Shown here in pieces: positions 39,640 to 58,916 of a DNA stretch of 64,000 nt. The notes beneath the pieces were generated by a model. It worked only from the letters and a program-made list of their open reading frames with translations. It was not told the DNA's origin and searched no databases. This DNA comes from Brevundimonas pondensis (GTDB lineage Bacteria > Pseudomonadota > Alphaproteobacteria > Caulobacterales > Caulobacteraceae). Both the position numbers and the translations under genes were made by a program. The stretch's first letter is position 1; each line of letters opens with the position of its first letter. Location of the stretch: contig NZ_CP062006.1 in assembly GCF_017487345.1 (NCBI RefSeq), positions 750,001-814,000 of the forward strand. The letters are read 5' to 3'.

Positions 39640-39646
39640 GCCCCTA

Positions 39647-39666
39647 ACTTGCGTAAATAGACCAAA
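39647..39666 (+). promoter_or_regulatory. Shared catabolic-cluster element, copy A
   Basis: ACTTGCGTAAATAGACCAAA lies 35 bases before the carotenoid-oxygenase start in a divergent promoter region. It is 17/20 identical to copy B before the second oxygenase, and its first 16 bases match copy C before the TonB receptor at 14 positions. Confidence 0.7.
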
Positions 39667-39701
39667 AGCGCGAGGGTTCGTCCAGAGCCAGGAGACGAGC
39701 C

Positions 39702-41183
39702 ATGAAGATCGAGCGTTTGTCGCCCATCGTCGCGACCCTCAAGCCCAGCAATCATCCCTATTTGAGCGGGCCGTGGACGCCCCAGCATGAGGAGGTGAAC
39801 GCCTTTGATCTGCAGGTGATCGAGGGGGCCATCCCGGCTGACATCGACGGCGTCTACATCCGCAACACCGAGAACCAGGTGCACACGCCGCTGGGCCGCC
39901 ACCACCCGTTCGACGGCGATGGGATGCTGCACCAGATCAGCTTCCGGAACGGCAAGGCCGACTATCGCAACCGCTTCGTGAGGGGCCGCTGCTTTCAGGC
40001 GGAGCAGCAGGCGGGCGAAAGCCTATGGGGCGGCATGATGGACGGGCCGAACGTGTCGAAACGTCCTGGCTTCGGCGCCCACGGGGGCATCAAGGATTCA
40101 GCCAGCACCGACGTTGTGGTCCATGCGGGCAAGGCGCTGGCGACCTTCTATCAGTGCGGCGAGGCCTATCAGCTGGACCCCAACACCCTGGACGATGAAG
40201 GCGTGGCGTCGTGGGCGCCGCTGGACGGGGTGTCGGCCCATGCGCGGGTGGATGAACGGACCGGCGAGCTGCTGTTCTTCAACTACTCCAAGCACGCGCC
40301 CTACATGTATTACGGCGTGGTCGCGCCGGACGGGCGGCGGACGCACTACACGCCGATCCCCTTGCCGGGCGCGCGTCTGCCGCACGACATGATCTTCAGC
40401 GAGAACTACACCATCCTGAACGACTTCCCGTTGTTCTGGGACGAGAAGGCGCTGAAGGCGGGATATCACGCCGTGCGCTATCGCCCCGACATGCCGTCGC
40501 GCTTTGCTGTCATTCCTCGCTATGGGACGACCGAGGACGTCCGCTGGTTCGAGGCGGCGCCGACCTATGTCCTGCACTTCCTCAACGCCTATGAGGAAGG
40601 CGACGAGATCATCATGGACGGCTATTTCCAGGAAAAGCCGATGCCGGATCCCTTGGGCGATCTGCCCGAGATCTACGCCGAACACGCCCACATGATGGCC
40701 TTCGTCGATGAGAACAGCTTCAGGCCCAAACTGCACCGCTGGCGCTTCAACCTGAAGGACGGCACGACCAGGGAAGAACGGCTGGACGACCGCCTGGTCG
40801 AGTTCGGCACCATCAATCAGCAGTACGCAGGCCAAGCCTATCGCTACGCCTATAGCACCACGACCAAGCCAGGCTGGTTCCTGTTCAACGGCTTCATCAA
40901 GCACGATCTGAAGTCCGGCGAGTCCTGGACAGTGAACCTGCCTGAGGGACGTTACGCCAGCGAGGCGCCCTTCGCGCCGCGCATCGGCGCCAAGGATGAA
41001 GACGACGGCTATCTGGTCAGCTTCATCATCGACGAGAACGCGGGCCGGTCGGAGTGCATCCTGATCGATTGCAAGCGGTTCGAGGACGGCCCCGTTTGCC
41101 GCATCGCCCTGCCGCACAAGATCAGTTCAGGCACCCACGCCTGCTGGGCCGATCGCCGCTTCCTGCCGGACGAGGCGGCTTGA
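39702..41183 (+). CDS. Carotenoid-oxygenase-family dioxygenase 1 (lignostilbene-dioxygenase-like)
   Basis: A 493-residue seven-bladed-propeller enzyme of the RPE65/CCO/LSD superfamily. The four iron-binding histidines are visible as H180 (GVSAHARVD), H228 (RLPHDMIF), H292 (YVLHFLNAYEEGDE) and H479 (SSGTHACWA). The family splits a carbon-carbon double bond with O2 to give two carbonyls, acting on carotenoids, stilbenes or phenylpropenes; substrate cannot be read from sequence. It leads a unit with a feruloyl-CoA-synthase-like gene and a thiolase and carries regulatory copy A upstream. Confidence 0.92.
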   Translation: MKIERLSPIVATLKPSNHPYLSGPWTPQHEEVNAFDLQVIEGAIPADIDGVYIRNTENQVHTPLGRHHPFDGDGMLHQISFRNGKADYRNRFVRGRCFQAEQQAGESLWGGMMDGPNVSKRPGFGAHGGIKDSASTDVVVHAGKALATFYQCGEAYQLDPNTLDDEGVASWAPLDGVSAHARVDERTGELLFFNYSKHAPYMYYGVVAPDGRRTHYTPIPLPGARLPHDMIFSENYTILNDFPLFWDEKALKAGYHAVRYRPDMPSRFAVIPRYGTTEDVRWFEAAPTYVLHFLNAYEEGDEIIMDGYFQEKPMPDPLGDLPEIYAEHAHMMAFVDENSFRPKLHRWRFNLKDGTTREERLDDRLVEFGTINQQYAGQAYRYAYSTTTKPGWFLFNGFIKHDLKSGESWTVNLPEGRYASEAPFAPRIGAKDEDDGYLVSFIIDENAGRSECILIDCKRFEDGPVCRIALPHKISSGTHACWADRRFLPDEAA

Positions 41184-41250
41184 CCGGCCAGGGCTCCTTC
41201 ACCATGCTTTCATTAGCAGACCTTGTTGAAGCGGCGATCGGGAGGGGGCG

Positions 41251-43134
41251 ATGACGGCTTTGGGACAGGCGACGGTGGACGCAGCTTCGGAAACGGCGTC
41301 GTGGCGAGCGGCGCCGTTCCGTGACGCCGGCCTGATGCCGGTTGATTTGGAGGTGCGGCGCGAGGCGGACGGGGCCATGGTGATGCGCTCGCGCATTCCC
41401 TTGGCCGCGCATGACTGGAACCTGCCGCGCGCCTTCGCCGCGGTGGCGGCGCGTGAAGGGGCAAAGACCGCCCTGGCCCGTCGCGAGCCGGCCCAGGGCG
41501 GCGCCTGGGGTTTGCAGAGCTATGCTGAACTGAAGGCCAGTATGGACGCCGTGACCCAGTGGCTGCTGGATCATCCGCGGCACACGGGCGGGCCGCTGAT
41601 GGTTATGGGCGCCAACAGCCCGGTCATGGCGGCCTTCCTGTTCGGAGCCCTGGCGGCGGGCGTGCCGACGGCCCCGGTCAGCGCCCATTACGCCCTGCTG
41701 GGCGGCGACCTGGGGCGACTGAATCACGTCATCCGCAGCTTGAAGCCGTCGATCCTGCTGATCGAGGACGCCCGCATGGCCGCCGCCGCGATCGACGCCT
41801 TGGACCTGGGCGAAGCCGTGGTTATCACCGCCACGCCCGAGGCGCTGACGCGGACGAGCCTGCCCTTGACGGAGGTCATGGCCACGCGCCCCGGTCCCGG
41901 CGTGGCCGCGAGCATCGAGGGTCTGAAGCCGGAACAGGTCGCCCAGTTCATGATGACCTCCGGCTCGACAGGCCTGCCCAAAGTCGTGCCGCTGAGCCTG
42001 CGCTCCATCGCCGCCAATACGGCCCAGGCGGCCCAGGTGATCGGCGAGGACTACGCCTGGTCCGGCGACCTGCTGGGCTGGATGCCGTGGAACCATGTGG
42101 CCGGGGCGGCGGTGCTGAGGGCCGTGCTGCTGGCGGGCGGCGCCTTCCATATCGATGACGGCAAGCCCATGCCGGGCCTGTTCGAGGCGTCTATTCGCAA
42201 CCTGCGCGAGCGGCCTGTGCGCTACTACGTCAACGTGCCCACCGGCTACGCCATGCTGGCCGACGCGCTGGAGGCGGACGCCGAACTGCGCCGGACCTTC
42301 TTCTCCGACCTGCGGGTCATGGTGTTCGGCGGCGCGGCTCTGAACCAGTCGGTCAGCGACCGGATACAGGCCATGGCGGTGGCGGAGACGGGCCATCGCA
42401 TCATGCTGACCTCGGCCTATGGCGCGACCGAAACCACGGCGGGCTTCATGGTGGTGCACCAATATACCGACCGTCTGGGGCTGGGCCTGCCCGTGCCGGG
42501 GGTCGAGGTGAAGCTGGTCCCGTACGACGCCGACAGGTTCGAGGTGCGAGTGCGCGGCCCGAACGTCATGGGCGGCTACCATGAGGATGCGGCGCGGACG
42601 GCCGAGGCGTTCGACGCCGAGGGCTATTACCGCATGGGCGACCTGGCGACCCTGACGGATCGAGACGACCCGACCCAGGGCGTCTTCTTCGCCGGGCGGC
42701 TGGCGGATCAGTTCAAGCTGTCGACGGGCTCCTGGGTGTTTGGGGCGCAGATGCGCGAAACGGTCTTTCAGGCCCTGGCGCCGCTCGTCGCCGAGGTGGT
42801 GCTGTGCGACGACAACCGGCCGTGGCTTGGGGTTCTGGCCTGGCCGTCGCCCGTCGGGATCAAGGCTGTGCTGGGCATGGAGGCCGGCGAGGCCCTGACG
42901 TCGGGCGCCCTGGCGCAGGCGGTGCGCGAACGGCTGACCGCCCACAACGCCTCGGCTCACGGCGCCAGCGCCCGTATCGCGCGTCTGGCCTTCCTGACGA
43001 CGCCGCCCGACCCGAACGCGCACGAAGTCTCCGATAAGGCGACGATCAACCGCCGCGCCGTCATCGACAACCGCGGGGCCCAGGTCGAGGCCCTCTACGC
43101 CGAGCCTGCCGGGCCGGGCGTCATCGTCGCCTGA
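41251..43134 (+). CDS. Feruloyl-CoA-synthase-like acyl-CoA ligase
   Basis: A 627-residue adenylate-forming enzyme. AMP-binding loop MMTSGSTGLPKVVPLSL, WMPWNHVAGA, the AYGATETTAG motif, GRLADQFKLSTGSWV and the catalytic lysine in SDKATINRRAV place it with feruloyl-CoA synthases, which are longer than ordinary ligases. It would activate an aromatic or alpha,beta-unsaturated acid to its CoA thioester. No feruloyl-CoA hydratase-lyase gene is in the window, so classical ferulate to vanillin conversion is not supported. A strong GGGAGGGGG site precedes the ATG. Confidence 0.92.
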   Translation: MTALGQATVDAASETASWRAAPFRDAGLMPVDLEVRREADGAMVMRSRIPLAAHDWNLPRAFAAVAAREGAKTALARREPAQGGAWGLQSYAELKASMDAVTQWLLDHPRHTGGPLMVMGANSPVMAAFLFGALAAGVPTAPVSAHYALLGGDLGRLNHVIRSLKPSILLIEDARMAAAAIDALDLGEAVVITATPEALTRTSLPLTEVMATRPGPGVAASIEGLKPEQVAQFMMTSGSTGLPKVVPLSLRSIAANTAQAAQVIGEDYAWSGDLLGWMPWNHVAGAAVLRAVLLAGGAFHIDDGKPMPGLFEASIRNLRERPVRYYVNVPTGYAMLADALEADAELRRTFFSDLRVMVFGGAALNQSVSDRIQAMAVAETGHRIMLTSAYGATETTAGFMVVHQYTDRLGLGLPVPGVEVKLVPYDADRFEVRVRGPNVMGGYHEDAARTAEAFDAEGYYRMGDLATLTDRDDPTQGVFFAGRLADQFKLSTGSWVFGAQMRETVFQALAPLVAEVVLCDDNRPWLGVLAWPSPVGIKAVLGMEAGEALTSGALAQAVRERLTAHNASAHGASARIARLAFLTTPPDPNAHEVSDKATINRRAVIDNRGAQVEALYAEPAGPGVIVA

Positions 43135-43152
43135 AACAGAGGAAGATATCCG

Positions 43153-44373
43153 ATGGTCTATATCCTGGGCGGCTGGCAGTCCGACTTCAAACGCAACTGG
43201 GCCCGCGAGGGACTGGAGATCGGTGATGGCTTCGCCGAGGCTCTGCGCGGGGGTCTCGACGCCGTGGACATGGCGCCGGACGAAATCGAGGTCGGCCATG
43301 TCGGCAATTTCGTCGGTGACCTGTTCTCGGGCCAAGGGCAGCTGGGCGGCTTCTTCGCCATGGCCGAGCCGGCCTTCGACGGCCTGCCGACCTCGCGGCA
43401 CGAAGCGGCCTGCGCCTCGGGCAGCATCGCCCTGCTGGCGGCGATGGCGGACATCGAGTCCGGGCGCTACGGAACCGCCGCCGTCCTGGGGCTGGAGATG
43501 ATGCGCAACGTGCCGGGCGAGACGGGGGCCGCCTATCTGGGGGCCGCCGCCTGGGTGGGGCATGAGTATCAGGACGCGCGCTACGTCTGGCCGCGCGCCT
43601 TTTCCGAACTGACCGACGAATACGACCGCCGCTATGGCATCGACGAGGCGCATCTGCGCCGCATCTCGCAGATCAACTTCGCCAACGCCAGGCTGAACCC
43701 CAGGGCCCAGACGCGCGACTACGTCTTCAATGACGCCAGCTTTTCGGCCGACGATGAAGCCAATCCGGTGATCGAGGGGCGGGTGCGCAAGAGCGACTGC
43801 GGCCAGGTGACGGACGGCGCGGCCATGGTGGTTCTGGCCTCAGCCGAACGGGCGGCGGACTATGCCCGGCGACGCGGCGTGCCTCTGGAAAACCTGCCGC
43901 GCATCAAGGGCTGGGGCCATCGCTCGGGCCCGCTCAGCTATCAGCGCAAGGTCGAGGCCAGCGCCGGGGGCGACTACGTTTTCCCGCAGGTCAAACGCGC
44001 CATTGACGAGGCGCGGGCGCGGGCGGGTCTGTCGCTGGACGGGATCGACGCGGTCGAGACGCACGACTGCTTCGCCATGACCGAATACATGGCCATCGAC
44101 CATCTGGGGCTGACCGCGCCGGGCGAGAGCTGGAAGGCGGTCGAGGCGGGCGACATCGAGATCGGCGGACGTCTGCCGATCAATCCGTCGGGCGGGCTGA
44201 TCGGCTGCGGCCACCCGGTCGGCGCGACTGGGGTGCGGATGGCGCTGGACGCCTTTCGCCAGACGACCGGAACGGCGGGCGGCTGTCAGGTCGAGGGGGC
44301 GAAGAACGTCCAGACGCTGAATATCGGCGGCTCGACCACCACGACCGTCAGCCTGGTGATCGGCCGGGATTGA
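43153..44373 (+). CDS. Thiolase-family protein (SCP-x/acetyltransferase type)
   Basis: A 406-residue thiolase. The nucleophilic cysteine is in HEAACASGSIALLA and the C-terminal active loop is NPSGGLIGCGHPVGATG. The final active-site loop reads LNIGGSTTTT, so the second cysteine of FadA-type thiolases is absent, as usual for SCP-x-like members. It begins 18 bases after the ligase stop with GAGGAAG upstream. It probably performs the terminal cleavage of a branched or aromatic 3-oxoacyl-CoA. Confidence 0.9.
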   Translation: MVYILGGWQSDFKRNWAREGLEIGDGFAEALRGGLDAVDMAPDEIEVGHVGNFVGDLFSGQGQLGGFFAMAEPAFDGLPTSRHEAACASGSIALLAAMADIESGRYGTAAVLGLEMMRNVPGETGAAYLGAAAWVGHEYQDARYVWPRAFSELTDEYDRRYGIDEAHLRRISQINFANARLNPRAQTRDYVFNDASFSADDEANPVIEGRVRKSDCGQVTDGAAMVVLASAERAADYARRRGVPLENLPRIKGWGHRSGPLSYQRKVEASAGGDYVFPQVKRAIDEARARAGLSLDGIDAVETHDCFAMTEYMAIDHLGLTAPGESWKAVEAGDIEIGGRLPINPSGGLIGCGHPVGATGVRMALDAFRQTTGTAGGCQVEGAKNVQTLNIGGSTTTTVSLVIGRD

Positions 44374-44379
44374 GGCGGC

Positions 44380-44865
44380 TCAGCCGTCCTGACGACGGGT
44401 GCGGATGGCGATGGCCGCCGAGCCGTGGGCGATGGTCAGGCCGTCGGGCGTAGAGACCGTGACCTCGGCGACCACCTTGCGCGGGTCGGCGTAGACGGCG
44501 CGACCCTCGGCGATCAGTCGTCCGCAGCCGATGGGGGCGGCGTTCAGAAAGCGCATCGACAGGTCGGTGGACAGCAGGAACTCGCCCGGCTTCAGCAGGG
44601 TCATGGCCGCGCCGCCGCCGACGATATCGACCAGGGCCGCCGTCACCCCGCCATGCACCAGGCCGACGAAGTTGGAATGGCCGGGGTCGATGTCGCACTC
44701 GACCCGCATATGACCCTCGGCCACGTCCACCGGACGGGCGGCCAGACGGTTGACGAAACCGCCCGGCCAGACCGTTTCGATCCACCGCCGCGCCAGCTCC
44801 AGCCCGCTTTGCGCCGGATCGAGGGCGAAGACGGGCGGCTGAATCATCTGCGGCGATCCGCTCAT
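44380..44865 (-). CDS. PaaI-family hot-dog thioesterase
   Basis: A 161-residue hot-dog-fold protein. The family signature LVHGGVTAALVDIVGGGAAM includes the catalytic aspartate region, and a C-terminal strand reads VVAEVTVSTPDG. PaaI-like enzymes hydrolyse aromatic or stalled CoA thioesters, rescuing CoA. It is the last gene of the eight-gene leftward operon and overlaps the flavoprotein gene by four bases. Confidence 0.9.
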   Translation of the reverse strand: MSGSPQMIQPPVFALDPAQSGLELARRWIETVWPGGFVNRLAARPVDVAEGHMRVECDIDPGHSNFVGLVHGGVTAALVDIVGGGAAMTLLKPGEFLLSTDLSMRFLNAAPIGCGRLIAEGRAVYADPRKVVAEVTVSTPDGLTIAHGSAAIAIRTRRQDG

Positions 44866-45809
44866 GCGGCGACGCTCCGGGGAGCGCTCAACCTGGCGAA
44901 GCGGGCGGCGGCGGCGCGGTATTCCGCCTCCAGCCGGTCCACCACGACGGCCGTGGGCTCGACGGCGTTGATCTTCTGCAGGCCCTGGCCGGCGGCCCAG
45001 ATGTCGCGCCAGCGCTTGTGCGCCGCGTCGCCGGAATAGTCGCGGGTGATCGGGCCGCCCAGGGCGTCCGGGTCCATGCCCGCCGCGCGCAGGCTGGGCT
45101 TCAGCCAGGAGGCCGGGGTGCCGGTGATGGCCGAGGAGACGATCAGGTCGTCGGGGCCGCTGTCGACGATCATCTGCTTGTAAGGGTCCTGCGCCCGGCT
45201 CTCGGCGGCGGCCAGGAAGCGGGTGCCCATGTAGACCATGTCGGCGCCTGCCGCGATCGCGCCCGCCACGCCCGCGCCGTCGGCGATGCCGCCGCCGATG
45301 GTCAGCCAGCCGTCAAAGAACTCGCGCACCGCCGAGACGAAGGCGAAGGGCGACAGGTGGCCGGTGTGGCCGCCCGCGCCGGCGCTGATGCAGGCCAGGC
45401 CGTCGACGCCCGCGTCGGCGGCCTTCCTGGCCAGGGCCATGTTGACCACGTCGGCGAAGACCAGGCCGCCATAGCCCTTGACCGTCTCCATCACCGGCTT
45501 GGGCGAGCCCAGGGCGGTAATGACGATGGGCGGCTTGTACTGCGCCACCAGCCTCAGGTCTTCTTCGAGCCGGGCGTTGGTCGAGTGGGTGATCAGGTTG
45601 GCGACCCACGGCCCGTCGCCGGGGTTCAAGGCGTCGGTGATCTGACCCATCCAGGCGTCCAGGTCGGCGACGGTGCGGCAGTTGGGCGTGGGAAAGGCGC
45701 CGCCGATCCCGGCCTTGCAGGCGGCGATGACCAGTTCCGGCCCGCTGACCAGGAACATGGGCGCCGAAATCACGGGCAGGCGCATCGGGTGGGGGAAGGC
45801 GGTGGTCAT
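44862..45809 (-). CDS. Nitronate-monooxygenase-family flavoprotein
   Basis: A 315-residue FMN TIM-barrel protein. LPVISAPMFLVSGPELVIAA is the N-terminal substrate/FMN region, SAGAGGHTGHLSPFAF contains the conserved histidine, and IGGGIADGAGVAGAIAAGAD with GTRFLAAAES is the phosphate-binding end. Many such proteins in CoA-ester catabolic clusters do not oxidise nitronates; IpdC of steroid degradation is a known example with a different role. The start MTTAFPHP at 45809 overlaps the upstream ligase by four bases. Confidence 0.88.
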   Translation of the reverse strand: MTTAFPHPMRLPVISAPMFLVSGPELVIAACKAGIGGAFPTPNCRTVADLDAWMGQITDALNPGDGPWVANLITHSTNARLEEDLRLVAQYKPPIVITALGSPKPVMETVKGYGGLVFADVVNMALARKAADAGVDGLACISAGAGGHTGHLSPFAFVSAVREFFDGWLTIGGGIADGAGVAGAIAAGADMVYMGTRFLAAAESRAQDPYKQMIVDSGPDDLIVSSAITGTPASWLKPSLRAAGMDPDALGGPITRDYSGDAAHKRWRDIWAAGQGLQKINAVEPTAVVVDRLEAEYRAAAARFARLSAPRSVAA

Positions 45810-47533
45810 GCGGATTTCAACTGTCCAGAGTGGTCGCCGAGGGACCGGCGCAGGTCGCGTTTCAGCACCTTGCCGACGGGGTTGCGCGGCAGGATGTCGA
45901 TGACTTCCAGCCGTTCGATCTGCTTGTAGACGGCGACATGCTTGTCGCCGGTCAGGAAGCGGTTGATGTCGCCGAGGTCGGCGGTCTGACCCGGCTTGAA
46001 GACGACGAAGGCGCACAGACGCTCGCCCAGGTTGGGGTCGGGAGCGCCCACCACGGCCACATCGGCGACGGCGGCGTGGCCCATCAGATGACCCTCGATT
46101 TCCTCGGACGAGATATTCATCCCGCCCCGGATGATGACGTCCTTCAGGCGGCCGACGAAGCGGTAGAACTGTCGTTGGTCGCCCGCCAGTTCGAACAGGT
46201 CGCCGGTGCGGAACCAGCCGTCCGCGTCAAAGGCCCGGGCGTTGATTTCGGGCGAGCGCCAATAGCCCGAGAAGATGGTCGCGCCCTTGACCCGCAGCTC
46301 GCCAGACACCCCGACCGCGGTGATCTCCTGCTCCGTCTCGGGATCGACCAGGCGGGTGAAGATGCGGTCGTGCAGCAGGGCCTTCCATCGGAAACCTTCG
46401 CCCAGGCGCGGGAACAGGACGGCGCGTTCGGCCGCATCCGGCACGTCTTTCTGGGCGCTGGGGAAGGAGGCGCCTTCGTTGGAGCCGAAATAATTGACGA
46501 TCTGGACGCCGTACTTCTCGAAGAAGGTGCGGACCATCCATTCCGACAGGGGCGCCGAACCTGAGCCGATGGACCGCAGCCGGTCGAAATCGACACCTTC
46601 GAGCAGGGCCTCGTTCTGCAGCAGCAGGTTCAGCACGGCGGGCGGGGCGACAGTGTAGTCGATCTTCTCGGCGCGGACCTGTTGCAGGAAGATCTGCAGG
46701 TCGAACGGCTGATGCTGGATCAGAACACCGCCGAGCAGCAGCCAGGAGACGAAGCTGGTCGAGATGCCCGCCATATTGACCATGGGAAAGGGGTTCAGCA
46801 GCACCGCGCCGGGTTGCAGGTCGGCGGCGTCCGCCACGCCCGCGCCCATGATGATCCACTCATTGTGGCTACGCGGCACGCCCTTGGGCTGGGCCTCGGT
46901 GCCGGAGGTCCAGCAGATGGTGACGATGTCGTCGGCGCAAATGTTCGCGGCGCGGGCCGCCGCGCGTCCGGCCTCGATCTCGGTCTCGTCCAACGCCGAT
47001 GCGCGGGCGTCGAGGTCGATGGTTCCGGCGGGCGCCTCGCCGCCGGCCACCAGAACGGCTTTCAGGGTGGGGGCGTCCGCCTGGACCGACAGCATCATCG
47101 CGGCATGGGCGTGCTTGCCGATGCGGGCGGCGGTCACCACGGCCTTGGTGTCCGTCTTGGCGACGATATAGGCCAATTCGTGCTCGCGGTACTGGACCGG
47201 GGCGGGGGTGATGATGGCGCCCAGGCGGATACAGGCCAGGTAGATCAGGCCCAGCTCGATGACATTGGGCAGTTGCACCGCCACCACGTCGTCGCGTCCG
47301 ACGCCGACCGTGTGTAGAACGGCGACGTAGCGGGCGACCCGGTCCTCGACCTCGGCCCAGGTCAGGCGGGCCGGGGCGCCGCCCATGATGGCTTCGCGGT
47401 TGATGGGGTCGACCACGGATTCGGCGTCCGGCATGGCGGCGACGTGACGACGGAACAGGTCGTCCAGCGTGTCTTCGCCCCACCAGCCCCTGGCCTTGAA
47501 GTCGCGGATACGGTCCTCCGGCACGACGATCAT
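45806..47533 (-). CDS. Acyl-CoA ligase A (AMP-binding)
   Basis: A 575-residue adenylate-forming ligase. Key motifs are TICWTSGTEAQPKGVPRSH (P-loop), NYFGSNEGA, GRLKDVIIRGGMNISSEEIE and the catalytic lysine in RNPVGKVLKRDL. It belongs to the broad medium-chain/aryl acyl-CoA synthetase group. A GGGAGAAG ribosome-binding site precedes ATG 47533. With two more ligases in the cluster it suggests several acids arise and are activated separately. Confidence 0.92.
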   Translation of the reverse strand: MIVVPEDRIRDFKARGWWGEDTLDDLFRRHVAAMPDAESVVDPINREAIMGGAPARLTWAEVEDRVARYVAVLHTVGVGRDDVVAVQLPNVIELGLIYLACIRLGAIITPAPVQYREHELAYIVAKTDTKAVVTAARIGKHAHAAMMLSVQADAPTLKAVLVAGGEAPAGTIDLDARASALDETEIEAGRAAARAANICADDIVTICWTSGTEAQPKGVPRSHNEWIIMGAGVADAADLQPGAVLLNPFPMVNMAGISTSFVSWLLLGGVLIQHQPFDLQIFLQQVRAEKIDYTVAPPAVLNLLLQNEALLEGVDFDRLRSIGSGSAPLSEWMVRTFFEKYGVQIVNYFGSNEGASFPSAQKDVPDAAERAVLFPRLGEGFRWKALLHDRIFTRLVDPETEQEITAVGVSGELRVKGATIFSGYWRSPEINARAFDADGWFRTGDLFELAGDQRQFYRFVGRLKDVIIRGGMNISSEEIEGHLMGHAAVADVAVVGAPDPNLGERLCAFVVFKPGQTADLGDINRFLTGDKHVAVYKQIERLEVIDILPRNPVGKVLKRDLRRSLGDHSGQLKSA

Positions 47534-47570
47534 GTCGCTCTTCTCCCTGGTTCTCTTTTACGTCTTCCGG

Positions 47571-49049: not shown

Positions 49050-50272
49050 GCCGCGCGCTCCAGGATGGTGACGACGGTCGCCGCCTCCTCGACGCCCAGG
49101 AAGCCGCCGCCGTTCTCGGCTGCCGCGATGCGGGCGCCCTTGACCTGACGCGCTCCGGCTTCGCCGCGTAGGTGTTGTATCAGTTCATACAGTTGGCCGA
49201 CGCCCGTGGCGCCGACCGGGTGCCCCTTGGCCACCAGACCACCGGACGGATTGACTGGAGTGCGGCCGCCGAGCGCGAAATCGCCCGCCTTCAACCGCGC
49301 CCCGACCTCGCCGGGGGCGGCCAGGCCCAGGTTCTCGATCTGCTGCAGTTCGGCATAGCTGGTGGCGTCATGGACCTCGGCCACGTCTACGGCGTCCGGT
49401 CCCAGACCGGCCTGCTCATAGGCGGCGCGGGCGGCGCGGCGGCCTATGTGATTGGCGTAGTCGTCGGGCGCGCGGTCGGCGGCGCTGACCAGGGCGCAGC
49501 CGCGCACCCGCACGGCGCGGGCGGTCGCGCCCAAGCGCGCCAGACCCTTGGCCGAACAGACGATCATGGCCGCCGCGCCGTCGCTGACGGGGGCGCACAT
49601 GGCGCGGGTGAAGGGGAAGACGATGGGTTTGTCGGCCAGGACCTGTTCCACCGTCATCGGGGTGCGGTACTGCGACTTGGGATTGCGGGCGGCGGCCGAG
49701 TGGTTCTTGGCGGCGATGCGGGCGAAGTCTTCCTGCGTCGTGCCGAAGCGGACCATGTGGGCGCGGGCCTGGGCGGCGTACAGGTCCATGAACAGGCTAC
49801 GGTTGTCGCCCGGCGCCGCGCCGCCCATGGAGGCGATGTAGGCCAGCACGCCCTCGCGGTCGTGGATGTCGGTCCCGCCCATGAAGGCGGCGGCGACGCG
49901 CTCGGGCCGGTCAGGGAAGACCATCTTTTCGGCTCCGATGATCAGGGCGATGTCGCCCGCGCCCGCGCGCAGCCACTGGATGGCCTGATAGAGGGCGGTG
50001 GAGCCGGAGGCGCAGGCGTTCTCAACATTGGTCACGGGGATGCCGGTCAGGCCCAGCGGGCGCAGGGCGATCTGGCCGCACACCGTGTTCTGGCCCTCCA
50101 GCATGGGCTGGCGGGTGTTGGAGAACCAGGCGGCCTCGATGTCGCTGATCTCAGCGCCCGCGTCGGTCAGGGCGTCGCGCACCGCCTCGGCGGTCAGGCT
50201 CTTCACCGTGTCGGCGGGGCGTTTGCCCAGGGCGGTCATCGACACGCCGGCGATGAAGACCGGCGCTGTCAT
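49046..50272 (-). CDS. Thiolase-family protein (SCP-x-like, lipid-transfer type)
   Basis: A 408-residue thiolase. The cysteine nucleophile is in NVENACASGSTALYQA, the conserved histidine in GGLVAKGHPVGATGVGQLYE, and the C-terminus has NGGGFLGVEEAATVVTILER without the second cysteine. SCP-x-type thiolases act on branched or bulky acyl-CoA side chains such as those of sterols. It overlaps PaaN and ligase B genes by four bases each. Confidence 0.9.
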   Translation of the reverse strand: MTAPVFIAGVSMTALGKRPADTVKSLTAEAVRDALTDAGAEISDIEAAWFSNTRQPMLEGQNTVCGQIALRPLGLTGIPVTNVENACASGSTALYQAIQWLRAGAGDIALIIGAEKMVFPDRPERVAAAFMGGTDIHDREGVLAYIASMGGAAPGDNRSLFMDLYAAQARAHMVRFGTTQEDFARIAAKNHSAAARNPKSQYRTPMTVEQVLADKPIVFPFTRAMCAPVSDGAAAMIVCSAKGLARLGATARAVRVRGCALVSAADRAPDDYANHIGRRAARAAYEQAGLGPDAVDVAEVHDATSYAELQQIENLGLAAPGEVGARLKAGDFALGGRTPVNPSGGLVAKGHPVGATGVGQLYELIQHLRGEAGARQVKGARIAAAENGGGFLGVEEAATVVTILERAA

Positions 50273-51951
50273 TCAGACGGCCGACGGCGCTGGACGATGC
50301 GGAAGCGCGAGGCGACGAAGGCCAGGTCGGCCAGACAGGCGTTGCCCGCCGGGTTCAGGCCGCTGACGTGATAGTCGCTATAGGCGGCGGCGAAGTTGAT
50401 CCACATCGCCCCGGTCAGATTGATCGTCAGATTGGCCCCGGCCTGCTCATAGAGGGGCGTCGAACGGTCGATGAAATCCTCGTCCGTCGAATAGAGGTAG
50501 GAGGAGATCGAGCCCTTCGTCCGGGCCAGATAGGTCGCCTCGGCCACGGCGGCGTCGGCGTCCATCGTCACCACGAACAGGACCGGGCCGAAATGCTCCT
50601 CGGCGTAGAGGTCGGGCGCGGACCCGTCGACCGCCAGAACCAGAGGCGTCAGGGTGCGGGCCTTGGGGAACTGCGGGTGGGCGTAGGGCGCGGCTTCGCG
50701 CAGGACGTGGACGCCATCGCGGCGTTCGACGGCGCCGCGCACGTCGGCCACGGCCTTCAGGCTGACCTCGCCCTGGATGGCGCCCATGATTCCGACGGCC
50801 ATGGCCGGATCGTCGGCGATGGCGTCGATCTGAGCGACCAGGGCGGCGCCGAAGGCTTCGACCAGATCGGGGGCGACATAGACGACCTGGGGGCTGGTGC
50901 ACATCTGGGCCGAGAACAGGCTGGCGGCGCGGGCCACGGCGCGGGCGGCGGCGTCCAGATCGGCGACGGAGTGGACCACCACGGTGTTGACGCCCGCCGT
51001 CTCGGTGAACAGCAGCTTGCCCGTCACCGTCCGTTCCAGATGGCCGCCGTAGCGTGGGCTGCCGGTGAAGTCGATGATCTGAACGGCCGGGTGATCGACC
51101 AGAACCTGAGCCACCGGCTGGGCCAGGGTGTCGACGGCCAGGGTGATCAGGTTGGGATCAAAACCGAAATCGGCCAGCACCCGCCGGCACTCGCGCGCCA
51201 CGATGGCCATGGGCAGGACGGCGATGGGGTGGGGCTTGAGGATGACCGGATTGCCGGTCGCCAGGCTGGCGAACAGGGCGGGATAGGCGTTCCAGGTCGG
51301 GAAGCTGGCGCAGCAGACCACCAGTCCGATGCCGCGCGGGACCAGGGCATAGGTCTTGTCCAGACTGACCGCTTCGCCCGCGAAGTCGCGCTCGTAGCGA
51401 GCGCTGCGCGTCACGTCGCGCATGGCCTTGGCGGCATAGGCCAGGGCCTCGATTCCTCTGTCCAGGGCGTTGGGGCCGGAGCCGCTGAAGGCTTGCGTAT
51501 AGCTCTGACCCGCGACGTGCATGACGGCCTGTGCCATCTCGAAGTTCACGTCATAGAGGCGGGTCGCCATCTCTGCGCACAGGGCCAGACGCAGTTCGGG
51601 ATCAGCGGCGCGCCAGTCGGGCCAGGCGGTCTGCGCCGCCTCGATCAGAGCCTCGGGATCGCAGCGCGGATAGGTGATCCCCAGCGCCTCGCCGGTGAAG
51701 GGCGAGACCTCGGCGCCGACGTGGTCAATGACGCCGGGCAGATCCAGGTCGAAGGGACGGTTCAGTTGGGCCTCGAAGGCGGCCTTGCCCGCGAGGGGCT
51801 TGTCCGGGCCGTGGATCTTGGTCGAGGGCGAGTCCTTGAACGGCGACCAGGCGGCGCGGGTGGCGACAGCGTTGATGGCGGCGTTGATCAGGTCGGCGTG
51901 GCGGTCGATCAGGGCGCGACGAGCGTCTGCGACGGGGAAGGGGGCGTTCAT
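50269..51951 (-). CDS. paaN: PaaN-type aldehyde dehydrogenase
   Basis: A 560-residue protein of the PaaN group. ALDH-fold elements are TFPTWNAYPALFASLATGNP (NAD pocket), the glutamate in LLFTETAGVNTVVV and the nucleophilic cysteine in LFSAQMCTSPQVVYV. It has a long N-terminal extension and no MaoC hydratase domain, unlike PaaZ. It probably oxidises an aldehyde, for example a product of the oxygenases encoded beside it. ATG 51951 is chosen; TTG 51960 would overlap the thiolase stop by three bases. Confidence 0.88.
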   Translation of the reverse strand: MNAPFPVADARRALIDRHADLINAAINAVATRAAWSPFKDSPSTKIHGPDKPLAGKAAFEAQLNRPFDLDLPGVIDHVGAEVSPFTGEALGITYPRCDPEALIEAAQTAWPDWRAADPELRLALCAEMATRLYDVNFEMAQAVMHVAGQSYTQAFSGSGPNALDRGIEALAYAAKAMRDVTRSARYERDFAGEAVSLDKTYALVPRGIGLVVCCASFPTWNAYPALFASLATGNPVILKPHPIAVLPMAIVARECRRVLADFGFDPNLITLAVDTLAQPVAQVLVDHPAVQIIDFTGSPRYGGHLERTVTGKLLFTETAGVNTVVVHSVADLDAAARAVARAASLFSAQMCTSPQVVYVAPDLVEAFGAALVAQIDAIADDPAMAVGIMGAIQGEVSLKAVADVRGAVERRDGVHVLREAAPYAHPQFPKARTLTPLVLAVDGSAPDLYAEEHFGPVLFVVTMDADAAVAEATYLARTKGSISSYLYSTDEDFIDRSTPLYEQAGANLTINLTGAMWINFAAAYSDYHVSGLNPAGNACLADLAFVASRFRIVQRRRPSE

Positions 51952-51956
51952 GGCGC

Positions 51957-53102
51957 TCAACCCACCCGTTCCACGATCATGGCCGAGCCGACGCCTTGCG
52001 CGCCCGCCGCCACGACAAGGCCATAGCGGCCTTCGCAGGCGTCAAGCGCGTCGAGCAGGGACGACAGCAGGATGGCGCCGGTCGCCCCCATCGGATGGCC
52101 CTTGGCCAGATGGCCGCCGCCGACATTGACCTTGTCGCTCAGGGTCGGGTGCTCCCTTGAGAATTTGGCGATGACGACGGCGAAGGCCTCCATAAACTCG
52201 ATCCGGTCCATGTCGGCCAACGTCAGTCGGGCCTTGTCCAGCACGCGCTCCATCGCGGTGAAGCCGGCGGTCAGGGAGGCGGCGGGATCGCCCCCGGCCT
52301 CGACCCAGGCGACAATGCGCGCGCGCGCGCCTTCGGCTTCGCCCGAGATCAGCGCCAGTCCGGCGCCGTCGCTCATCGGCGGGGCATGGGCGACCGTGTG
52401 GCGGTGGTCGATGGCCCGCCCCTCCAGCGCCTCGGCATAGGGCGCGGCCAGGGCGGCGAAGGCGGCGGGCATGGCGACCAGGCTCTCGGCGGTGGTTTGT
52501 GCGCGGGCGGCTTCCTCCCGTTCCAACCCGTTCAGCGGAATGCGCGAAGCGATCAGCGGGGTCCCTTCGGCGGCGGCCGTGCGCTGCTGCGAGGTCAGGG
52601 CGACGGCGTCCATTTCGGCCCGCGTCACGCCGATGTCCTCGGCCAGACGGTCGGCGGCGACGGCGACGGGGATGTAGCGGGTGCGCGGCGGGAAGCTGGC
52701 GTCTTCGTAATAGTCGGCCTTGTCGCCCATGAAGGGGACGCGCGACATCATCTCGACGCCGCCGGCCAGGGCCGAGCGCACGGCGCCGGTCTGGACCATG
52801 GCCGCCGCCTGACCCACGGCGGTCAGGCCCGAGACGCAGTAGTTGTTCAGGCTGAAGGCGAAGGCGGCGTCGTCCAGGCCCGCGTGCAGCTTGCTGACCA
52901 GGGCGACATTGGCCCCCTGGGCGCCGACCTGACCGACGCAACCCAGGATCAGGGCTTCGGCGGTGCGGGGCGCATGGCCGCGCGTCTCCATGGCGTCGAT
53001 CAGGCCCGTGACCAGTTCGTGGGGCTTCAGGGCGGCCAGGCCGCCGTCGGGTCGGGCCTTGCCGCGCGGGGTGCGGACGGCGTCGTGGATATAGGCGTTC
53101 AT
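51957..53102 (-). CDS. Acetyl-CoA acyltransferase-like thiolase with altered active site
   Basis: A 381-residue classical-type thiolase. The first cysteine is present (LNNYCVSGLTAVGQAA) and the histidine in GGGHLAKGHPMGATGA. In the C-terminal loop, where FadA-type enzymes have a cysteine before a glycine run, this one reads GLVVAAGAQGVGSAMI, with alanine at the cysteine position. The start MNAYIHDAVRTPRGK at 53102 follows the oxygenase stop by four bases. It may use a modified mechanism or substitute base. Confidence 0.88.
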   Translation of the reverse strand: MNAYIHDAVRTPRGKARPDGGLAALKPHELVTGLIDAMETRGHAPRTAEALILGCVGQVGAQGANVALVSKLHAGLDDAAFAFSLNNYCVSGLTAVGQAAAMVQTGAVRSALAGGVEMMSRVPFMGDKADYYEDASFPPRTRYIPVAVAADRLAEDIGVTRAEMDAVALTSQQRTAAAEGTPLIASRIPLNGLEREEAARAQTTAESLVAMPAAFAALAAPYAEALEGRAIDHRHTVAHAPPMSDGAGLALISGEAEGARARIVAWVEAGGDPAASLTAGFTAMERVLDKARLTLADMDRIEFMEAFAVVIAKFSREHPTLSDKVNVGGGHLAKGHPMGATGAILLSSLLDALDACEGRYGLVVAAGAQGVGSAMIVERVG

Positions 53103-53106
53103 CGGA

Positions 53107-54567
53107 TCACCCCTTCGCCATCTGGTCGCCGCGCGCCCAAGTGCCGTGGAAGCCGGCGGGCACCCGCGCGGGCAGCATGACGCGCGCCACCGGACCGGCC
53201 TCGAAATTCTTGGCGTCGATGACCTGAACCTCGGACTTGCCGGCATTCTCGTCGGTGACAAAGACGATGACGTAGCCGTCGTCCTCGCCCTTGGCGTCGA
53301 TGCGGGGGGCGAAGGCGGGTTCGGAACCGAACATCTGGGGCTCGAAATCATAGGTTCGGGCGGCGCCGCTGAGCAGATCGTACTTGATCAGACCCTTGAA
53401 GCGCTGAAGCTCGGTTTTGGACATGGCGACGTGATAGGACCAGCGCGTCGGCTGGGCCGCGTAGTCCAGATTGACCGCCGGGAACTCGCCGATGCGGTCG
53501 TCCAACTGGCGCTTCTTGACCTCGCCGGTACGCATGTTCATCCGCCACTCGACGGGCACGGCGTTCAGCGCCAGCACGTTCACCATGGGCGCATAGGGGC
53601 CGTAGTCGGGGTTCAGCGGATAGCCGTTGGGCGTCATCATGCAGGCGGTCATGACGACCTCGTCGCCGTCCTCCCAGCTGTTGACGACATGGTAGATGTA
53701 GCAGCTGTCCGTCTCGAACCAGCGGATCTGGTCGCCTCGGCCCCGGCGCGGCACGACGCCGAAACGGGCGGGCTGGTCGGCGAAGTGGATGTTCCACTGG
53801 CTCTTGCGCAGACCGGCGTCGGTGAAGACCACCGGCAAGTCGTGCAGGATGACGTAGTTTTCCGTCAGTCCCATATCGTGCGGCAGGCGCGGCCCGGGCA
53901 GTTCGACACGCTCGAAATGGGTCAGCTCGTTTTGGGCGTTGACCGTGCCGAAGGTCATCCACGGCTCGTAGAGCGAATAGTCGAAGAAGACGAACTCGCC
54001 GGTGCGCGGATCGACCTTGGAGTGGGCCGAGACGTGGCGCGGCAGCTTGCCGCCGAAGGTCTCGATCCCGATGGTCTCCAGGGTGCGCGCATCGACCCGG
54101 ACCGGATGGCCCGAGATGTACCACAGCGCCATCAGCGAGCCGTTGTGCAGGATCACGTCGGTGTTGGCTGTGTCCTTGTAGACCTTGTCCCCGCGCGTCG
54201 ATGCCGGGTTGGCCCGGCTTGAGGGATACATGACGCCGCCCGCGCCGCAGCTGCCGTTCAGGTCGGCGATGTGGTCCGCCGAGCGGACGAAGCGGTTCCG
54301 GTATTCCGCCTTGCCGTTCTCGAAATAGATGGCGTGCAGCATGCCGTCGCCATCGAACCAGTGATGCATCCCTTCGGGCGCCTGGGCCGGGTTCGGGCCG
54401 TTGCGGTAGAAGCAGCCGTAGAGGTCTTTCGGGATCTCGCCGATGACCGGAAGGTCCAGCGCCGTCGTCTCCTTGGCCACGGGCTCATAGGCGCCCTGCA
54501 GATAGGGATTCAGCGTGTTCAGCGGGCTGAGCGGACCGGTTTCGATCCGGCGGGCGTCGTCGGCCAT
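53107..54567 (-). CDS. Carotenoid-oxygenase-family dioxygenase 2
   Basis: A 486-residue enzyme of the same superfamily as the one at 39702-41183 but clearly divergent. Iron ligands are H182 (RHVSAHSKVD), H230 (RLPHDMGL), H293 (CYIYHVVNSWEDGDE) and H474 (AGFHGTWA). It leads an eight-gene operon with thiolases, PaaN, two ligases, a flavoprotein and a thioesterase. The frame is open to 54633, but MADDARR at 54567 fits the family and leaves the promoter region free. Copy B of the cluster element lies upstream. Likely reaction: O2-dependent cleavage of a C=C bond. Confidence 0.92.
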   Translation of the reverse strand: MADDARRIETGPLSPLNTLNPYLQGAYEPVAKETTALDLPVIGEIPKDLYGCFYRNGPNPAQAPEGMHHWFDGDGMLHAIYFENGKAEYRNRFVRSADHIADLNGSCGAGGVMYPSSRANPASTRGDKVYKDTANTDVILHNGSLMALWYISGHPVRVDARTLETIGIETFGGKLPRHVSAHSKVDPRTGEFVFFDYSLYEPWMTFGTVNAQNELTHFERVELPGPRLPHDMGLTENYVILHDLPVVFTDAGLRKSQWNIHFADQPARFGVVPRRGRGDQIRWFETDSCYIYHVVNSWEDGDEVVMTACMMTPNGYPLNPDYGPYAPMVNVLALNAVPVEWRMNMRTGEVKKRQLDDRIGEFPAVNLDYAAQPTRWSYHVAMSKTELQRFKGLIKYDLLSGAARTYDFEPQMFGSEPAFAPRIDAKGEDDGYVIVFVTDENAGKSEVQVIDAKNFEAGPVARVMLPARVPAGFHGTWARGDQMAKG

Positions 54568-54639
54568 GGCGGCTGTTCCTTCCCTGTGCGGGGACGCGGT
54601 TGTGCTGCGTCCATCCTTGTATAAACGAACCATGAGCAG

Positions 54640-54659
54640 TTTGGTCGTTTAACGCAAGT
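54640..54659 (-). promoter_or_regulatory. Shared catabolic-cluster element, copy B
   Basis: Read leftwards: ACTTGCGTTAAACGACCAAA, 72 bases before the second oxygenase start and directly after the SDR stop. It differs from copy A at only three of 20 positions. Confidence 0.7.
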
Positions 54660-55558
54660 CACTTCGTCGTGGTGATTTTCAAGACAGCAGACATCAACTG
54701 GTCGAAGGCGGCGTTGCCGTCGCTGAAGGTCCGCCAGCCGTTCAGATCCATCAGGGCGGCGGCCTGTTTCGTCAGGTCGTCGGGCGCGACGTCGCCGGCG
54801 AAGATCAGGCCCGGCCCTTCGATCCGGGCGGCGGGCCGCACGGCGCCCGCGCCGGCTGCCAGCGTCTGGCCGTTTAACGGACAGTCGGGCGACATCAGCC
54901 AGCTGGCGACCGGGGCGACGCGCTCAGGCCCCATGCGGGCGGCGCTGGCGTCGTCCAGATATTCGGCGGTCATGCCGGTGGCGGCGTAGGGGGCGATGGC
55001 GTTGCAGCCGACGCCGTGGGACGCCCCTTCCAGGGCGATGACCCGCATCAGGCCGATCAGCGCCGCCTTGGATGACGAATAGGCCGCCATGCCGTGAACG
55101 CCATGCAGGCCCGCCGCCGAGGTCGACATCAGGATGCGGCCCGACCCCTGGGCGCGCAGGTGGCGATAGATGGGCAGGGTCGGCGTCAGAGAGCCGAAGA
55201 AGTTGACCTCGAACACCTGTCGAAAGGCGTCGGTGGTCTGCTTGTGCAGGCTCCTGGCTTCGGGCGCGCCGGCGTTGTTCAGCAGGCCGTCGATACGGCC
55301 GAAGGCGTTCAGAGCCGCAGCCAGAAGCCGCTCGCCGGAATCGGCCTCCTCGACCGCCAGGGGCGCGGCGACGGCCCGACCGCCCAGGGCTATGATCTCG
55401 GCCACGACCGTCTCGGCCGAGCCGGGCGCGTCGGCGGCTCGAGGGCGGGTGTTGACCACGACGCGCGCCCCGCGCTGCGCCAGGTCATGCGCATAGGCCC
55501 GGCCGAGGCCGCGTCCGGCGCCGGTGACGACGATCACCTGATCCTGAAGGGGGCTCAT
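54659..55558 (-). CDS. SDR-family oxidoreductase (HSD17B4-like)
   Basis: A 299-residue short-chain dehydrogenase. The cofactor motif is VTGAGRGLGRAYAHDLA, then LLNNAGAPEA, and the catalytic serine, tyrosine and lysine in STSAAGLHGVHGMAAYSSSK. The acidic-residue-free strand end (VVVNTRPRAADAPGSAE) suits NAD(P) enzymes of the multifunctional-enzyme type 3-hydroxyacyl-CoA dehydrogenases. It overlaps the DUF1295 gene by four bases. It is the only obvious 3-hydroxyacyl dehydrogenase candidate in the cluster. Confidence 0.9.
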   Translation of the reverse strand: MSPLQDQVIVVTGAGRGLGRAYAHDLAQRGARVVVNTRPRAADAPGSAETVVAEIIALGGRAVAAPLAVEEADSGERLLAAALNAFGRIDGLLNNAGAPEARSLHKQTTDAFRQVFEVNFFGSLTPTLPIYRHLRAQGSGRILMSTSAAGLHGVHGMAAYSSSKAALIGLMRVIALEGASHGVGCNAIAPYAATGMTAEYLDDASAARMGPERVAPVASWLMSPDCPLNGQTLAAGAGAVRPAARIEGPGLIFAGDVAPDDLTKQAAALMDLNGWRTFSDGNAAFDQLMSAVLKITTTK

Positions 55559-56535
55559 GCGTCGGCGCCTTCGGTCCCGGTCGTGGCCCTGGGGCGCGGC
55601 CAGGGCAGGAAGCGCGGCGTGCGGGCGCAATAGGCGGCCCAGGCCTCGGGCCGGGAGCGCGCCATGTGCTGTTCCTTGAACGGCGCGGCCGAGGCGTAGC
55701 CCATGAACCAGCCGGTATAGAGGGGCGCGAATACTGTGATCCAACCCCAGGGATGGGCCAGGGCCAGCACGAACCAGCCCGCCCACATGACGCTTTCGCC
55801 CAGATAGTTGGGGTGGCGCACGATGGCCCAGGCGCCGGTGTCCAGCAGGCCGCCCCGGTTGGCGGGAGCGCGCTTGAAGTCGGCCAACTGGCGATCCGCC
55901 GTGCTCTGCAACGCGAAGCCCGTCAGCCAGACGGCGCCGCCCAGCAACAGCGGCAGCGCCGGGCGCGGCGCGGGCGCCGTCAGGATGAAGGCGAAGGGCG
56001 CGCACCACAGCCAGACGGTCACGCCTTGCAGCAGGTGGACCTGGAAGGCGCTCCACCACAACCACGTCGGTCCGAAGCTCTTGCGCCAGTGGGCGTAAGG
56101 CTGACGCTCGGCATGGATGTTGTGACCCCAGGTCTGGATCGCCAGTCGGATCGACCAGACGCCCAGGCTCACCAGGAACAGGCCGCTGAACAGGTCCAGC
56201 GGCAGGCCGGACAGGGCGAAGATCACCCCCGCAGCCGCCAGCGGGGCCAGCGGATAAGCCACGTCCATCAGGCCGTGATTGCGCTTCAGCGTCCCCGCCA
56301 GCCAGCCCAGGGCGACGATGGAAAGGATGGCGCCGCCGCTGGCGATCCAGATGAACAAGGTTTCATGCAGCAAGGAAGGAGGAACCGCAAAGGCGGCGGC
56401 GAAGGCGACAAGCGGCGCGGCCATCATGACGTAGTGCCATGCTTTGCCGCGTGTTTTTCCGGGCATTGCCAATAGCCAGATCGCCGCCAGAGCGACCCAG
56501 GCGAGGGCGGCCAAAGTCCATCCATCCGGTCTCAT
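55555..56535 (-). CDS. DUF1295-family membrane enzyme of the catabolic cluster
   Basis: A 326-residue protein with about nine hydrophobic segments. Motifs are RNHGLMDVAYPLAPLAAAGV, QSTADRQLADFKRAPANRGG, AWAIVRHPNYLGESVMWAGW and a C-terminal ARSRPEAWAAYCARTPRFLP. It is a paralogue of the protein at 22505-23308. The fold includes steroid 5-alpha reductases, so it may reduce an enone or other unsaturated intermediate at the membrane. ATG 56535 has AAAGGAG nine bases upstream. It is divergent from the TonB receptor. Confidence 0.88.
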   Translation of the reverse strand: MRPDGWTLAALAWVALAAIWLLAMPGKTRGKAWHYVMMAAPLVAFAAAFAVPPSLLHETLFIWIASGGAILSIVALGWLAGTLKRNHGLMDVAYPLAPLAAAGVIFALSGLPLDLFSGLFLVSLGVWSIRLAIQTWGHNIHAERQPYAHWRKSFGPTWLWWSAFQVHLLQGVTVWLWCAPFAFILTAPAPRPALPLLLGGAVWLTGFALQSTADRQLADFKRAPANRGGLLDTGAWAIVRHPNYLGESVMWAGWFVLALAHPWGWITVFAPLYTGWFMGYASAAPFKEQHMARSRPEAWAAYCARTPRFLPWPRPRATTGTEGADA

Positions 56536-56554
56536 GAGGGCGGCTCCTTTCATG

Positions 56555-56574
56555 ACTTGCATAAAAAGACTTGC
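56555..56574 (+). promoter_or_regulatory. Shared catabolic-cluster element, copy C
   Basis: ACTTGCATAAAAAGACTTGC, here with an explicit direct repeat of GACTTGCA spaced 14 bases. Its first 16 bases match copy A at 14 positions. It lies between the divergent DUF1295 and TonB-receptor genes. Confidence 0.6.
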
Positions 56575-56654
56575 AAACACGGTTCGCTAGCGCAAGCTTC
56601 TTTTCGACCGAGGAGCATCCGATCAACGGAGCCGGTGAGGTCAGGGAGCGAAAC

Positions 56655-58880: not shown

Positions 58881-58916
58881 CCGCCCGTCCAGCTTCGGCT
58901 CGGCGGGCGGTTTTTT
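58881..58916 (+). terminator. Rho-independent terminator of the TonB receptor
   Basis: CCGCCCG and CGGGCGG form a stem followed by six T residues, 24 bases after the receptor stop. The T run overlaps the stop codon of the convergent regulator. Confidence 0.85.

Follow-up and report, generated by a model that had tools for sequence, protein, structure and literature searches.

A recurring element in a catabolic cluster

We analysed a 64,000-nucleotide stretch of the Brevundimonas pondensis genome (contig NZ_CP062006.1, positions 750,001 to 814,000; hereafter the window, whose own numbering is used throughout), in which a short intergenic element recurs ahead of several genes of a catabolic cluster. 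On the plus strand, this cluster encodes an RPE65-family (carotenoid oxygenase-like) protein (RPE65a; 39702..41183), an AMP-binding acyl-CoA ligase (AMP-ligase; 41251..43134), a thiolase-like protein (43153..44373) and a TonB-dependent receptor (56655..58856). A second RPE65-family protein (RPE65b; 53107..54567, minus strand) is the first of a minus-strand operon whose remainder (44862..53351) comprises a thiolase, ALDH, a thiolase-like protein, two AMP-ligases and NMO. Two further minus-strand units are divergent from the plus-strand genes: DUF1295 (ATG at 56535) with an SDR (54659..56535), and APH (ATG probably at 39590) with ACAD (37312..39590). Both RPE65-family proteins carry the RPE65 domain (PF03055) and score below the curated equivalog cut-offs, with 225 and 301 bits against the 675 of the carotenoid model, and likewise below those of both lignostilbene models. 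A shorter version of the cluster, with HxlR, thiolase-like and RPE65a genes adjacent, was seen in one relative (locus L090, genome G227). The regulator gene in question (58915..59865, minus strand) encodes a tandem HxlR protein of 316 amino acids with two HxlR winged-helix domains; we placed its start at a TTG at 59865, inferred from relatives, while the longest open reading frame (ORF) extends to 59967.

A preliminary description of this DNA had reported three copies of a 20-base element, and we found all three at the positions and strands given: ACTTGCGTAAATAGACCAAA at 39647, ACTTGCGTTAAACGACCAAA at 54659-54640 (minus strand) and ACTTGCATAAAAAGACTTGC at 56555. The RPE65a and RPE65b copies agree in 17 of 20 bases, as had been described, and the copies lie 35, 72 and 80 bases from the start codons at 39702, 54567 and 56655, respectively. 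They are non-coding, as proposed, except that the SDR stop codon ends on the first base of the 54659 copy. One more copy had been overlooked at 41206 (plus strand), ahead of the AMP-ligase gene, and a site of this type between RPE65a and the AMP-ligase gene is also present in close relatives (L084, L086, L089 and L092).

Shape and specificity of the element

To describe the element we used a position weight matrix (PWM; consensus TNRCTTKCRTWANNRRACYNA), for which the window was combined with 60 cluster stretches from a single family; refinement took in matches above 11.5, some noise included. The putative operator upstream of RPE65a (39645..39666, plus strand) scores 30.0, the copy upstream of RPE65b (54640..54661, minus strand; the TGA ahead of the site is the SDR stop codon) 24.9, and the copy upstream of the TonB-dependent receptor gene (56553..56574, plus strand) 29.6. 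The additional copy between RPE65a and the AMP-ligase gene (41204..41224, plus strand) scores 23.1. Two of the three copies first described have a weaker inverted partner: that of the RPE65b copy (54613..54633, plus strand; score 18.2) is 44 bases off, giving the pair 54659/54615, and that of the TonB copy (56579..56599, minus strand; score 15.2, and 15.5-20.7 in 15 of 16 relatives) is 42 bases off, giving the pair 56555/56597. A marginal site (59924..59944, plus strand; score 14.5) precedes the probable start codon of the HxlR gene by about 60 bases and may serve autoregulation.

With the threshold set above 16 bits, the matrix found 245 sites in 1.06 Mb, compared with 2.5 for column-shuffled and 3 for reversed matrices. 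Most sites fall outside called genes (91 of 125, 62 of 74 and 63 of 72, in DNA that is 82-88% coding), which is less often the case for reversed-matrix sites (7 of 21, 5 of 12 and 15 of 45); the gene calls behind these counts are crude. The best self-complementary register coincides with the centre of a 21-base frame, T-N-A-C-T-T ... R-A-C-Y-N-A, and a strict palindrome was rejected because two C positions break it. Inverted pairs of sites prefer spacings of 42 (28 counts), 43 (4), 44 (16) and 61-62 bases (17), with no other distance up to 120 above 4, in counts that include related promoters, and pairs with both members above 18, more than once. The TonB copy does contain GACTTGCA twice at 14-base spacing, as previously noted. 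As a general architecture this direct repeat was discarded, for a same-strand match above 8 at +14 was found at only 5 of 131 non-redundant sites, and it is a feature of the TonB promoter alone.

Within this genome the element is specific to the cluster. The 21-base pattern with up to three mismatches occurs three times in the window (0.01 expected), and the 16-base core ACTTGCRTWAAWMGAC has three matches in the 3.55-Mb genome, all within the cluster, compared with none for the reversed pattern. Allowing up to two mismatches in the core added just two further sites genome-wide (reversed control, 6), and a looser pattern, CTTKCRTWANNNGACY, has four sites in this genome, all in the cluster, the fourth being that at 41206. 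A motif common at unrelated genes had been named as a refuting outcome of a genome-wide scan; in this genome the scan gave the opposite result.

Distribution over promoters and genomes

Which promoters carry sites was examined among relatives, counting only matches with at least 55% identity and a near-complete start, and leaving out one RPE65a, one ThioA and one AMP2 match that lacked upstream DNA. Within 260 bases of the start, the matrix found a site ahead of RPE65a in 19 of 19 and ahead of the TonB gene in 16 of 16; for RPE65b the counts were 16 of 18 above 18 and 18 of 18 above 14, and the AMP-ligase gene had a site above 18 in 6 of 7 relatives. No site was found upstream of operon-internal genes (0 of 93: NMO 14, AMP2 15, AMP3 14, ThioB 16, ALDH 15, ThioC 19), nor within 260 bases of SDR (0 of 16) or ACAD (0 of 5). 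Intermediate were ThioA (3 of 20), the HxlR gene itself (10 of 20 above 18, either strand) and APH (4 of 7 orthologues, either strand, none on the APH strand). Because the matrix was trained on these loci, the zeros are more telling than the full scores.

Across the genus, the exact core occurs in 7 of 131 genomes (reversed control, one match), RPE65a relatives in 26 and the tandem HxlR protein (E ≤ 1e-40) in 23. The looser pattern CTTKCRTWANNNGACY is present in 30 of the 131, namely in 22 of the 23 genomes with a tandem HxlR and in 8 of the 108 without (Fisher's exact test, 2.4e-17), and the 23 genomes hold 55 of its matches. An order-wide scan with a loose pattern matched 16 of 200 genomes (24 sites); the reversed control matched more genomes there (about 46 by hand count), so the pattern of that scan proves little outside cluster-bearing genomes. 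Related clusters that are intact and have a close tandem HxlR retain the motif, contrary to the second refuting outcome named in the preliminary description; it is mostly missing from two related oxygenase clusters (L122 and L123) whose tandem HxlR is very distant (26% identity, helix PAIL, without Asn). L123 has no site above 11.5 and L122 has two, at 22.5 and 11.8; these two clusters should have a different operator.

For more distant loci, an alignment of tandem HxlR proteins was used to scan a single genome of each species, and the best 80 of 298 loci were kept. Their genera include Phenylobacterium, Caulobacter, Sphingomonas, Blastomonas, Solimonas, Xanthobacter, Afipia, Bradyrhizobium, Tistlia, Ramlibacter, Litorivivens and others, from the alpha-, beta- and gammaproteobacteria. 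A site above 15 was present in 79 of these best 80 loci, the exception being a 5-kb contig (L150). We set aside 21 of the 80 for overlap with training genomes; a 'caulo' group of 25 loci, which includes L166, L171 (Terricaulis), L172 (Sphingomonas) and L173 (Blastomonas), gave 95 matches. In 34 distant loci that hardly overlap the training DNA, a site above 15 was found in 34 of 34, with 68 sites in total compared with 8.3 for shuffled and 10 for reversed matrices. An RPE65 gene was not found in the DNA stretches examined for 29 of these 34, and in 9 HxlR was the sole window-cluster gene found. Pfam searches of three loci (L201, L211 and L216) identified neighbours that include periplasmic binding proteins (LivK-like), a thioesterase (4HBT), enoyl-CoA hydratase (ECH) and an ABC ATPase. 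Since the constants across the distant loci are the tandem HxlR and the site, we read the pair as a module. At loci L192-L222 we also observed TGTCAA, that is, TTGACA on the opposite strand, at a near-fixed distance of about 12-17 bases past many sites.

Taken together, the genome specificity, the promoter pattern, the co-occurrence in the genus and the sites beside the tandem HxlR in all 34 distant loci point to the element as, very probably, the operator of the tandem HxlR encoded at 58915-59865. The original idea that a single regulator acts on uptake and both oxygenase units is thereby strongly supported, and the guess that this regulator is the tandem HxlR gains support from co-occurrence both in the genus and far outside it. 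Its extension to the divergent operons fares less evenly: control of APH/ACAD is less well supported by the counts given above, while control of DUF1295/SDR through the inverted partner at 56597 is plausible, the conservation of the DUF1295 side having been read only through the TonB gene.

Several observations weigh against this assignment. The per-gene counts come from the same promoters on which the matrix was trained, which leaves the distant loci and the reversed and shuffled controls as the independent evidence, and the distant loci themselves contain several Afipia, Bradyrhizobium and Xanthobacter records. Within the genus, the reversed pattern has more matches in all (89) than CTTKCRTWANNNGACY (63) and only the distribution differs, the reversed matches being spread evenly (16 in the 23 genomes and 73 in the 108; table counted by hand). 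One genome with a tandem HxlR lacks the strict pattern (G265; best site 18.3), and so do three with a distant tandem HxlR below the E cut-off (G165, G239 and G255), which were counted among the 108. Several genomes carry two tandem HxlR paralogues, so that a site may serve either. Finally, matrix sites are not confined to tandem loci, for in the surroundings of single-domain HxlR genes 16 sites scored above 16, five above 20 and one above 22 (reversed, 0).

The tandem HxlR protein

Pfam counted two HxlR stretches in both tandem proteins checked, one of them the window protein (PF01638, E 2.7e-32), and two halves are present in all 39 aligned sequences, which had been selected for that length. 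In the structure model of the window protein (mean pLDDT, the predicted local distance difference test, 87.3; predicted template modelling score 0.87), the chain forms two winged-helix units with a small beta part after each. The recognition helices of the two domains differ, being of the APN/ATN type in the C-terminal domain (ATNILADRL in the window) and of the ARS/PRS type in the N-terminal domain (PRSVLTDRL in the window). The N-terminal sensing Cys is absent from the window protein and replaced in 36 of the 39 tandem sequences (alignment judged by eye). HxCG...CxxC motifs, which are possible zinc ribbons, occur in both halves of Caulobacter/Phenylobacterium-type tandem HxlRs and have been lost in the window subgroup. 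The protein is a structural variant within the HxlR/DUF24 family, not an outsider to it, with two domains in one chain instead of a single-domain homodimer.

In six loci (L127, L128, L129, L132, L141 and L143), a second tandem HxlR paralogue was observed in the same cluster, with nearby sites of the flavour CTTTCATAACGATACTAA; in the second paralogues that were aligned (L128, L141 and L143), the helix region of the N-terminal domain reads LLQSKL or LLQTLL.

Among solved structures, the chains most similar to the model are PA1607 (2f2e) and PA1374 (4gcv), followed by YodB and HypR. With YodB, HypR, QsrR and HxlR of the HxlR/DUF24 family, the tandem protein shares the HxlR fold in each half; it differs in having two domains per chain and an operator that is asymmetric in one half. 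The single HxlR relatives examined have an N-terminal Cys (CPV/CSV), which the tandem sequences mostly lack. Members of the family usually bind inverted repeats, and the tandem site departs from such a symmetric operator as a quasi-palindrome with one altered half. SarS of Staphylococcus is a two-unit SarA-type protein in which winged-helix units are fused as a pseudo-dimer; its structure (1p4x) was returned by Foldseek at rank 42 (E 0.053) for the tandem HxlR model, and it belongs to another family, with other sites and without a catabolic role. HxlR regulators and fused winged-helix pseudo-dimers are thus already known kinds. In our searches of the open-licence literature we found no description of the two-domain HxlR class or of a tandem HxlR with a conserved hybrid operator, and no helix-residue recognition code for the HxlR family.

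Palindromic sites of single-domain HxlR relatives

Twenty loci around single-domain HxlR genes (204 kb) had been meant as a negative control. In six of them, seven TNACTT-N9-AAGTNA palindromes, which account for part of the matrix sites mentioned above, lie directly ahead of single HxlR genes with the helix APNILTKRL or one near it; three sets of tandem loci (347, 709 and 716 kb) contain none. We then fixed the rule beforehand and applied it to 40 fresh loci, where the palindrome preceded all four APN-type genes and none of the 33 others. Over both sets it was found at 11 of 11 APN genes (10 exact, one with one mismatch) and 0 of 49 others; as the genes are related, a p-value on these counts overstates the evidence. 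In this test ORFs above 260 amino acids and repeats with identical upstream DNA were dropped, the start was estimated and one mismatch was allowed. Three control patterns gave no match in it, and a hybrid pattern, one base from the palindrome, also matched 10 of 11 APN and 4 of 27 RN genes. The palindromes stand 27-78 bases ahead of the estimated start of their own gene, and probably serve autoregulation.

APN-type single HxlR sites share with the tandem operator the 21-base frame and the left half TNACTT. The right half differs, being AAGTNA in the palindrome and RACYNA in the tandem site, mainly through a change of G to C (AGT to ACY). The corresponding expectation, that an AR-type helix reads AGTT, was only partly borne out (AGTT-type palindromes at RS 6 of 8, RN 5 of 27, RP 2 of 7, RT 0 of 6), a point against the proposed reading.

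Two further observations concern these relatives. APN-type palindromes were seen in the genes' own promoters at L227, L229, L234, L236, L239, L242, L245, L252, L270 and L280; at some of them two copies overlap with an offset of 18 bases. Where the helix of a single HxlR is ARNVLAARL (L224-L226, L229, L231, L232, L239, L242 and L243), the genes have another conserved element, TGAGTTGC/TCAATTGC ... AACYTA, about 80 bases upstream of the estimated start.

Mode of action and alternative explanations

In the matrix-training cluster loci, 20 of 118 sites have a TANNNT at +24 to +26, compared with 0.7 per offset elsewhere. Among 39 non-redundant sites of the distant loci L192-L222, TTGAC on the other strand was counted 27 times at offsets 24-38 and twice at 60-74, with peaks at 29, 32 and 33. 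Part of the sites therefore appear to fall on core-promoter signals, which favours repression, and the tandem HxlR is probably a repressor. Counting against this, the opposite-strand TTGAC was found at offsets 24-38 in 0 of 71 Brevundimonas sites, the window's own group, and once in 115 Caulobacter/Phenylobacterium-type sites, and TANNNT over the same offsets is little enriched there (26 vs 17, and 12 vs 9). With the sensing cysteine of the family gone, redox sensing would be a less likely signal than a metabolite of the pathway, which might be an acyl-CoA or a cleavage product.

The protein might instead bind the site as an activator, which we consider rather unlikely. The B. subtilis HxlR carries an activator name, and according to a passage in PMC7835342 its signal raises its DNA affinity, which would suit activation. 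However, part of the sites overlap -35/-10-like sequences instead of standing upstream of them, and the single-HxlR palindromes, at the distances from their own genes given above, speak against it too.

That another regulator binds the element, either one of the two LysR proteins encoded on the two sides of the window cluster (36372 and 60089) or one whose gene lies elsewhere, is improbable. Around the clusters of the close relatives G097, G203, G208 and G245, the stretches examined contained no match to either of the LysR genes; the tandem HxlR ORF, by contrast, is in every cluster-bearing genome fetched, besides being the only cluster gene found at the nine distant loci mentioned. LysR proteins bind sites of the form T-N11-A, which would be the site expected in their case.

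Slightly less probable still is that the element is a piece of a promoter, made up of a -35 box and a conserved spacer and possibly recognised by an alternative sigma factor. In 20 of 118 sites TTKYRT is indeed followed by TANNNT at a distance of 17 ± 1 bases, but the -35-like box has G or T as its third base, conservation runs across 21 bases, and sites occur in both orientations and as inverted pairs. Distant loci have a separate TTGAC on the opposite strand, and APN-type single HxlR genes have the palindromic form. A plain -35/-10 promoter was rejected, as it fits only part of the sites.

That the repeat has no function and arose by chance or by recent copying, for which the mere three or four copies in the genome could be cited, is hardly credible: the element stands beside tandem HxlR genes in distant genera, is mostly intergenic and is absent ahead of the operon-internal genes tested, and it is neither a mobile repeat nor a product of chance.

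Discussion

We propose that the two HxlR units in one chain would act as a built-in pseudo-dimer at the element. The left half TNACTTGC would probably be read by the C-terminal unit (helix ATNILADRL) and the altered right half, which on the other strand is TNRGTY, probably by the N-terminal unit (helix PRSVLTDRL); we favour this assignment of domains to half-sites by a modest degree. Two units that read different halves would make the site quasi-palindromic yet asymmetric, and the second inverted site 42-44 (or 61-62) bases off at several promoters suggests that two protein molecules probably bind face to face. Repression would extend to TonB-dependent uptake, the two RPE65-type oxygenases and the AMP-ligase, and would end when a metabolite of the pathway frees the protein from its sites.

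The APN/ATN helix of the C-terminal domain, the retained TNACTT half, the palindromic cousins and the divergent clusters L122 and L123 together suggest a fused heterodimer on a hybrid site. On these comparisons, it is somewhat likelier than its opposite that a homodimeric HxlR repressor became a single-chain heterodimer when its gene was duplicated and fused, in which the TNACTT half is read by the A[PT]N domain and TNRGTY by the ARS domain, that the pair was then dispersed as a module among alpha-, beta- and gammaproteobacteria onto unrelated catabolic genes, and that the helix residues form a simple recognition code.

The pairing of regulator and site would assign an operator to a widespread two-domain class of HxlR proteins, whose regulons would become predictable from sequence, and the fusion would offer a natural experiment in which a symmetric repressor-operator pair turned asymmetric. 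For the organism, the assignment would unite uptake, the two oxygenases and CoA-dependent breakdown in a single regulon and may thereby aid in finding the substrate of the RPE65 pathway.

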